A stretch of DNA of 64,000 nucleotides, taken from contig CAMDGV010000015.1 of NCBI GenBank assembly GCA_945898055.1, positions 1-64,000 on the forward strand. Reading direction: 5' to 3'. The translations under genes and the position numbers were made by a program. Under the pieces are notes generated by a model. The model made no database searches. It had not been told where the DNA came from and saw only the letters and a list, made by a program, of their open reading frames with translations. This document shows, in pieces, positions 29,499 to 31,176 of this stretch. The DNA is from Akkermansia muciniphila. GTDB taxonomy: Bacteria > Verrucomicrobiota > Verrucomicrobiia > Limisphaerales > UBA9464. How positions within the stretch are numbered: position 1 is the stretch's first letter; each line of letters opens with the position of its first letter.

Positions 29499-29584
29499 TA
29501 TTTTGAATTGACGAACCGCCTCGATAAGACCACGTATTGTGGCGTTCTTTTCATGAGGCCACTAGATGTTGTGCCTCTCACTCA

Positions 29585-29973: not shown

Positions 29974-31176
29974 ATGGAAATAATCATGGAAGTGCCGATC
30001 CTCAATGCCCCCGCCGCAGAGGTCCCTATCAACACCGCCGCTCCCCTCGACGATACGTCTCGATCAACGGTGATCGACCAGAACGATGGCCGGTATGTTA
30101 CTCACGAATTTCGCGGTAAAACCTTCCGACTAGATCGAGAGAAAGCGCGTGCGCGTAAGGAAGCAAAACGGGTCATTAATGGTCTTCGCACCGCCGAACT
30201 AAACGTCTTACCCCTAAAATACCCAGAAGCCTACCGCATCTACAAACAGATGAAGGCCAACCATTGGGAACCTGACGTCATCGATATGACCAAGGATTGC
30301 ACCCAATGGAACTCCGGAGCGCTCAAGCCCAAGGAACGTTGGATTATAGAAATGGGTGTCGGTTACTTCTCCGCCGCCGAAGGTATCGTGGGAGATAGTG
30401 TCCTCCATGCCATCGAAGACAACCTGACCGCCGCTGAACTCAAACACGCTGCCCTCCGCTGGATCGCCGAAGAATCCATTCATATGGATTCTCTGCTGCA
30501 CATCATCAGCAGCTTAGATATTGATCAAGATGAGGTGACGGCGCGCTTCAATGACATTCCGAGTATTCGCCGCAAAAACGACTTCATCACCCGGCAAATG
30601 CCCGCAGTGAAACGGGGGCTCGATCTAACTCAGACCGTCAATAAACAGATTTTTGCTAAAGCCTTATTCGGGATTTCTCAGGTCATGGAGGGCACCCAGT
30701 TCTATGGACTGTTCGCTATGATTCTTTCGCTCTACCGACAGAATAAAATGACCGGCATCGGTCAAATGTTTCAGTACACGCTTCGTGATGAATCGAACCA
30801 TATCGCCCTCGGCCGCTTCTTGTTTACTGAATTAATCCACGAAAACCCAGATATTTGGACCCCTGAGTTCCGTGAAGAATTACGCAGTTTCATGCGGGAA
30901 GGTGTCGAACTGGAAAAGGATTTCGTTTGCGATTGTCTCCCCGAAGACTCCGTGGGAATGACTCAGGCGGAGTTTATTACCTATGTCGATTATAACGCTG
31001 ATCGGCGCTTAGTCAGCGTTGGCCTCGAACCTCTGAGCCAAGTCACGGTTAATCCTTTTCCTTGGTTGGATGAAGTCATCTTCCTCAAAAAGGAGAAGAA
31101 TTTCTTCGAAACTCGGGTCACTGAATATCAGACCAGCGGTAGCGTAACCAATACAGCCGAAGACGACTTGGTCTGA
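29974..31176 (+). CDS. nrdB: Class I ribonucleotide reductase small subunit, chlamydial (Ic)-like, Leu at radical site
   Basis: About 400 residues from ATG 29974 (29986 also possible; a TTG at 29917 lies inside the leader hairpin and is rejected). Metal ligands fit the R2 family: Glu136 (A-A-E-G), Glu167 and His170 (E-S-I-H), Glu239 (M-E-G), Glu273 and His276 (R-D-E-S-N-H). The first ligand is Glu, not Asp. The position four residues after His170, where standard R2 proteins have the radical Tyr, is Leu174 (codon 30493-30495). Spacing of ligands matches the Chlamydia class Ic subunit, which has Phe there. The enzyme probably uses a metal cofactor such as Mn/Fe instead of a tyrosyl radical. It precedes nrdA by 62 bases and is led by a cobalamin riboswitch. 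Confidence 0.93.
   Translation: MEIIMEVPILNAPAAEVPINTAAPLDDTSRSTVIDQNDGRYVTHEFRGKTFRLDREKARARKEAKRVINGLRTAELNVLPLKYPEAYRIYKQMKANHWEPDVIDMTKDCTQWNSGALKPKERWIIEMGVGYFSAAEGIVGDSVLHAIEDNLTAAELKHAALRWIAEESIHMDSLLHIISSLDIDQDEVTARFNDIPSIRRKNDFITRQMPAVKRGLDLTQTVNKQIFAKALFGISQVMEGTQFYGLFAMILSLYRQNKMTGIGQMFQYTLRDESNHIALGRFLFTELIHENPDIWTPEFREELRSFMREGVELEKDFVCDCLPEDSVGMTQAEFITYVDYNADRRLVSVGLEPLSQVTVNPFPWLDEVIFLKKEKNFFETRVTEYQTSGSVTNTAEDDLV

Follow-up and report, generated by a model that had tools for sequence, protein, structure and literature searches.

The window (the whole stretch of 64,000 nucleotides of DNA that was analysed) contains an nrdB gene that probably encodes a working class Ic-like R2 protein, the radical-generating subunit of a ribonucleotide reductase (RNR), in which the radical would be centred on metal, most likely as Mn(IV)/Fe(III), and which would work together with the NrdA encoded downstream. 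Judging from sequence comparison, we place the probability of this reading at about 0.75. A metal-centred radical in R2s of this type is very probable, and Mn and Fe are probably the metals by analogy to the single case of Chlamydia trachomatis.

In the proposed mechanism, six carboxylate and histidine ligands would bind a dinuclear metal site, next to which leucine (Leu174) stands where most other R2s have their radical tyrosine, so that a tyrosyl radical could not form there. With no tyrosine at position 174, the oxidising equivalent would most likely be stored on the metal pair, most likely as Mn(IV)/Fe(III), and the glutamate in the first ligand position would be the matching adaptation to this form of storage. 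The radical would then pass through Trp98 and Tyr385 of NrdB to Tyr890, Tyr889 and Cys571 of NrdA. In class Ic enzymes a Mn(IV) ion takes the place of the tyrosyl radical (PMC8463856; PMC4118035).

Metal site and class of the nrdB product

The nrdB product belongs to class I R2, as indicated by its match to PF00268 (220.9 bits in a profile search), a fold match with Z of 40, the metal ligands, the C-terminal tyrosine and the adjacent nrdA. It also matches the NCBIfam model NF005550 (PRK07209) with 313.5 bits, at a cut-off of 309. Site residues were mapped by aligning the window NrdB to its counterparts from E. coli (NrdB) and C. trachomatis (R2; Table 1). The ligands pair, in the order window/E. 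coli/C. trachomatis, as E136/D84/E89, E167/E115/E120, H170/H118/H123, E239/E204/E193, E273/E238/E227 and H276/H241/H230, while L174 aligns on Y122 of E. coli and F127 of C. trachomatis. The sequence context in translation is YFSAAE136GIVGD and E167SIH170MDSL174, and the CTG codon of Leu174 is at least two changes away from any tyrosine codon. The alignment bears out an earlier note on this DNA, which had placed Leu174 (codon 30493) at the radical-tyrosine site, Glu136 as first ligand and Glu167/His170 as the E-x2-H motif, and had noted that the ligand spacings 136-167 and 239-273 equal the chlamydial 89-120 and 193-227; from one ligand pair to the other, the separation is one residue off the chlamydial value. 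A Phe243/Phe247 pocket is common to the window NrdB and C. trachomatis R2. The only candidate NrdR box 5' of nrdB is a site with 3 mismatches (29559-29574, minus strand), which is no better than chance.

Table 1. Genes, site codons and second R2 copies, with positions counted in the window unless a locus is named
Feature	Position	Strand	Basis
nrdB, Leu-type class I R2 radical-generating subunit, 400 aa	29974..31176	+	PF00268 and NF005550 matches
Trp98 codon (E. coli W48, Chlamydia W51), radical/electron transfer	30265..30267	+	alignment; clade comparison
Glu136 codon, first metal ligand (Asp84 in E. coli, Glu89 in Chlamydia)	30379..30381	+	alignment; Glu in 133/133
ExxH Glu167...His170, metal ligands	30472..30483	+	alignment; invariant in clade
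Leu174 codon CTG, radical-tyrosine position	30493..30495	+	alignment and codon readout
Gln236, Thr241, Gln242, clade-specific polar residues around ligand Glu239	30679..30699	+	
Glu239 codon, metal ligand	30688..30690	+	alignment; clade comparison
Tyr268 (Chlamydia Y222, electron relay), then clade-specific Thr269 (Ile in E. coli and Chlamydia)	30775..30780	+	
ExxH Glu273...His276, metal ligands	30790..30801	+	alignment; clade comparison
Tyr385 codon (E. coli Y356, Chlamydia Y338), inter-subunit radical transfer	31126..31128	+	alignment; clade comparison
nrdA, catalytic subunit, 940 aa	31239..34061	+	profile matches
Second divergent R2 (G437)	L311:4955-6013	+	
Second divergent R2	L312:5447-6529	+	
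Second divergent R2	L313:4396-5424	-	

Among solved structures the best sequence match is the C. trachomatis Mn/Fe NrdB (E about 1e-77), and the predicted model of the window NrdB (mean pLDDT 81) gives its best fold match with C. trachomatis R2 (Z 40.3), followed by the R2s of S. erythraea (38.6) and Aquifex (36.2). These matches, the combination of Glu with a non-Tyr residue and the failure of the other classes on their signatures agree with the class Ic-like assignment that the note had proposed. Class Ia, with Tyr and an Asp first ligand, is ruled out by Leu174 and Glu136; class Id (NrdBi), which keeps the Tyr and has a Glu ligand with Lys four residues on, by Leu174 and Gly140; class Ie, with ligand carboxylates replaced and a DOPA-forming Tyr, by the presence of all six ligands and the absence of the Tyr; and R2lox, with its Tyr-Val cross-link, Ala for Phe and no RNR C-terminus, by Ile234, Phe243 and Tyr385. 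For class Ic itself, Leu174 is an inert residue in place of the radical tyrosine, which agrees with the class unless it is defined by Phe only, and the first ligand is Glu (Glu136; 133/133 in the clade described below). The wider definition has precedent: in PMC6370689, Phe, Leu or Val at the radical site defines class Ic in RNRdb-based work (citing Lundin 2009), and PMC3824934 credits Leu/Ile/Val in R2c to Hogbom 2010. Many class Ic-like sequences have been noted in NrdAz and NrdAq (PMC9669993). The Leu substitution itself is thus already known and is not new.

Fixation, activity and distribution of the Leu type

Relatives were taken as loci from whole genomes and viral contigs. After alignment, each was assigned a type from its first ligand and the residue at the radical site: 135 were Glu/Leu, 31 Glu/Phe and 119 Asp/Tyr, and beyond these there were a degenerate Leu copy that has lost ligands and three fragments in which not all sites are covered. 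In the 135 Leu, 31 Phe and 119 Tyr sequences, all of them complete, a Glu first ligand always accompanies loss of the Tyr and Asp always accompanies the Tyr. Two divergent second copies were set aside from the 135, leaving a Leu clade of 133 members (126 distinct sequences) in which Leu174, Glu136 and the remaining ligands are invariant and Tyr occurs at the radical site in none. Over the 126 distinct sequences, Leu174 is encoded by CTC 50 times, CTG 45, TTG 13, CTT 11, CTA 4 and TTA 3. All six Leu codons are in use, yet Leu174 and Glu136 never vary among the 126 distinct sequences, which points to selection on the amino acid. The six synonymous codons also rule out a sequencing error or frameshift at Leu174, and a check for close relatives with the Tyr restored, which the note had named as a sign of such an error, found Leu in all 126.

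At more than 30 positions the Leu type has a residue that is at least 95% fixed in it and that occurs in under 10% of Phe-type sequences and likewise of NrdBz Tyr-type sequences. Those that flank metal ligands in the sequence are Y131, G137, D141, S173, Q236, T241, Q242, T269 and N275; Gln236, Thr241 and Gln242 are each at 100% in the Leu type and below 10% in the other two, and the position of Tyr131 is occupied by Phe in Phe-type sequences and in almost all NrdBz Tyr-type ones. In E. coli the Ile that T269 replaces packs near the radical Tyr.

The radical-transfer path of NrdB and NrdA is intact as far as residue conservation can tell. Y268, D272, E379 and Y385 are invariant in the Leu clade, as is W98 in the 132/132 members covering that position. 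The window NrdA, which starts 62 bases 3' of nrdB, has the catalytic Cys350/Cys571/Cys586, the radical-path Tyr889/Tyr890 and the C-terminal Cys936/Cys939, and C350, C571, C586, N569, E573, Y889, Y890, C936 and C939 are the same in 17/17 NrdAs of the clade. Its N-terminal ATP-cone is weak (20.2 bits, below the cut-off); five other NrdAs of the clade score 34-96 bits for this domain, and its sequence suggests that dATP activity regulation may have been lost in the window's species. The order is nrdB-nrdA at all 45 Leu-type loci that yielded a single copy of both genes, compared with nrdA-nrdB at 20/20 Phe-type and 63/65 Tyr-type loci, and two Armatimonadota genomes have the two genes unlinked. 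Chlamydia also has the order nrdA-nrdB (PMC3019208).

Other RNRs were searched for (PF02867, NrdD) in 36 genomes with a Leu-type R2. A second PF02867 protein was found in 7 of them, including the window's genome, and class III NrdD in 4. Twelve single-contig genomes, 97-100% complete (G076, G094, G115, G146, G149, G198, G282, G310, G313, G330, G333 and G378), contain a single R2, which is of the Leu type, and a single PF02867 protein, and they lack NrdD. RNR is essential, and since the Leu-type RNR is the only one detected in these 12 genomes, their Leu-type R2 must be functional. The second PF02867 protein of the window's genome is a B12-dependent class II NrdJ (TIGR02504; G000 C72:6812-8494, L097), an oxygen-independent backup in this species.

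R2s of any type are present in 126 of the 388 sampled Verrucomicrobiota genomes, and the 113 that were typed comprise 79 Leu, 20 Tyr, 13 Phe and 1 degenerate. Within the window's own genus the distribution is patchy, with any R2-like match in 10 of 19 genomes, the window's genome counted. Armatimonadota have the Leu type in 12 of 16 typed R2s; the proposal in the earlier note that the Leu variant forms a further subgroup stands, given its monophyly, own residues and own gene order, and the proposed confinement to the PVC superphylum does not. Among the typed viral-contig matches the Leu type is absent, and these are mainly Tyr types together with a Phe type (L212). One MAG labelled Chlamydiae (L022, JABDCW010000015.1) has a Leu-type R2 with 73-79% identity to the window's, unlike Chlamydia's own Phe type; either the bin is mislabelled or the gene was transferred.

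Some genomes contain additional R2 genes. In three Verrucomicrobiota genomes a second, divergent R2 adjoins the Leu-type R2 and nrdA (Table 1). The one in G437 has partly lost its ligands (Gln, Arg, Val and Arg instead), and the pair of an intact and a degenerate R2 recalls yeast Rnr2/Rnr4, while those in G174 and G266 keep the ligands and have an altered NFFE C-terminal motif. Genome G404 has a Leu-type R2 and two Tyr-type R2-like genes (L098, L128), and a second NrdA was not found in it.

Descent and closest known systems

The Leu clade is monophyletic with a support of 100/100 in the R2 tree with near outgroups and of 99/98 in that with distant ones, except that the degenerate Leu copy falls inside it in the latter. 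It is also monophyletic in the NrdA tree (100/99), which does not settle how it branches relative to the Phe-type lineages. When the R2 tree is rooted on distant outgroups, the Leu clade lies outside the clade of Phe and NrdBz types. With near outgroups it is sister to the Krumholzibacteriota-type Phe R2s (98/96), and these two form one Glu/non-Tyr clade with the chlamydial Phe type (98/93). Consequently, whether the Leu clade and Chlamydia share their loss of the Tyr depends on the outgroup used, and we dropped independent loss as a firm claim because the branch is long and its placement shifts. A single clade of all Leu and all Phe types is rejected (p-AU 0.007 in the distant-outgroup set, 0.011 in the near-outgroup set) because Phe R2s of the S. 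erythraea type are embedded among the Tyr types; without these the union is not rejected in the distant-outgroup set (p-AU 0.105). The pattern implies repeated loss, or regain, of the Tyr across the wider family, and given the distant-outgroup placement class Ic chemistry may not be common by descent.

Of the known systems, C. trachomatis R2c (PDB 1syy, 4d8f, 4m1i) has the same six ligands including the first Glu, likewise lacks the radical Tyr, and has in W51/Y222/Y338 the counterparts of W98/Y268/Y385. It differs in having Phe rather than Leu, in the reversed gene order, in an identity of 36-38% in structure alignment and in the more than 30 residues specific to the Leu clade. The Phe-type R2s of the Krumholzibacteriota/Patescibacteria-like group (L049, L054, L058, L280, L290) share the Glu first ligand, the absence of Tyr and, in their HTDTF motif, the Asp of the Leu-type HxDSL, but have Phe, nrdA-nrdB order and about 40% identity. 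A similar identity (about 40%) is found with the NrdBz Tyr type, the class Ia of Pseudomonadota that resembles the one in P. aeruginosa (e.g., L050); its NrdA is in one clade with the Leu-type NrdA (99/97), and its R2, by contrast, combines Asp as first ligand with a radical-site Tyr. The R2 of Saccharopolyspora erythraea (PDB 6y2n), whose Z of 38.6 comes next after the Chlamydia entries, has the Glu/non-Tyr pair but with Phe, and its nesting among Tyr types points to an independent change.

Alternative readings and significance

Because the polar residues Gln236, Thr241, Gln242 and Thr269 lie beside the ligands, the cofactor of the Leu clade could, from its sequences, differ from the chlamydial one. 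In the strongest form of this idea, the Leu-type R2s of Verrucomicrobiota and Armatimonadota would be a separate subclass that lost its Tyr independently and whose polar residues would support a non-chlamydial cofactor or activation route, which we regard as unlikely. The same residues would suit a metal-centred oxidant other than Mn/Fe, either Mn2(IV,III) as in class Id, which pairs a Glu first ligand with a dimanganese site (PMC8463856, PMC6754362), or high-valent di-iron. We consider this rather improbable, as the Lys (Gly140 here) and the retained Tyr of class Id are both absent and the nearest structures are those of the Mn/Fe Chlamydia R2.

A stable radical on nearby Tyr131, Tyr244 or Tyr268 instead is very unlikely: Tyr131 is specific to the Leu clade, but E. 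coli has Y79 and Y209 at the positions of 131 and 244, Chlamydia has Y222 at that of 268, none of these is a stable radical site, and the Glu ligand swap tracks the loss of the Tyr. We give hardly any credence to a decayed or non-catalytic R2, or an error of sequencing or assembly. Although the NrdJ of the window's genome means that this genome alone is no proof that the class I enzyme is needed, the 126 distinct intact relatives with six Leu codons and all ligands, and the 12 genomes where the Leu-type RNR is the sole one detected, already refute decay or error for the Leu clade. The chance that nrdB encodes an R2lox protein is negligible; the two have the Glu first ligand in common and NCBIfam R2lox models match weakly, but at about 50 bits or less, far under their cut-offs, while the RNR C-terminus with Tyr385 is kept, nrdA is adjacent, the cross-link Tyr is missing (Ile234) and Phe243 stands where R2lox has Ala. 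We still prefer to read the window NrdB as class Ic-like, with its radical most likely centred on metal.

In the open-access literature searched we found no biochemistry (metal, EPR, activity) of any Leu-type R2 and no description of the Leu clade, its gene order or its status as sole RNR. What appears to be undescribed is therefore a coherent, monophyletic Leu clade with its own residues and nrdB-nrdA order that extends beyond the PVC superphylum. Class Ic chemistry in the papers cited here is that of Chlamydia, an obligate intracellular organism whose R2 is of the Phe type. For in vivo tests of a tyrosine-less R2, the Leu clade has free-living species in culture, among them Haloferula luteola (L033) and Cerasicoccus arenae (L040). 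As the commonest R2 (79/113 typed) in Verrucomicrobiota, a phylum rich in free-living bacteria, the Leu type bears on the proposal that tyrosine-less R2s are an adaptation to host nitric oxide, and the natural Leu/Phe/Tyr series with matching ligand changes provides a handle on what sets the choice of metal and radical.
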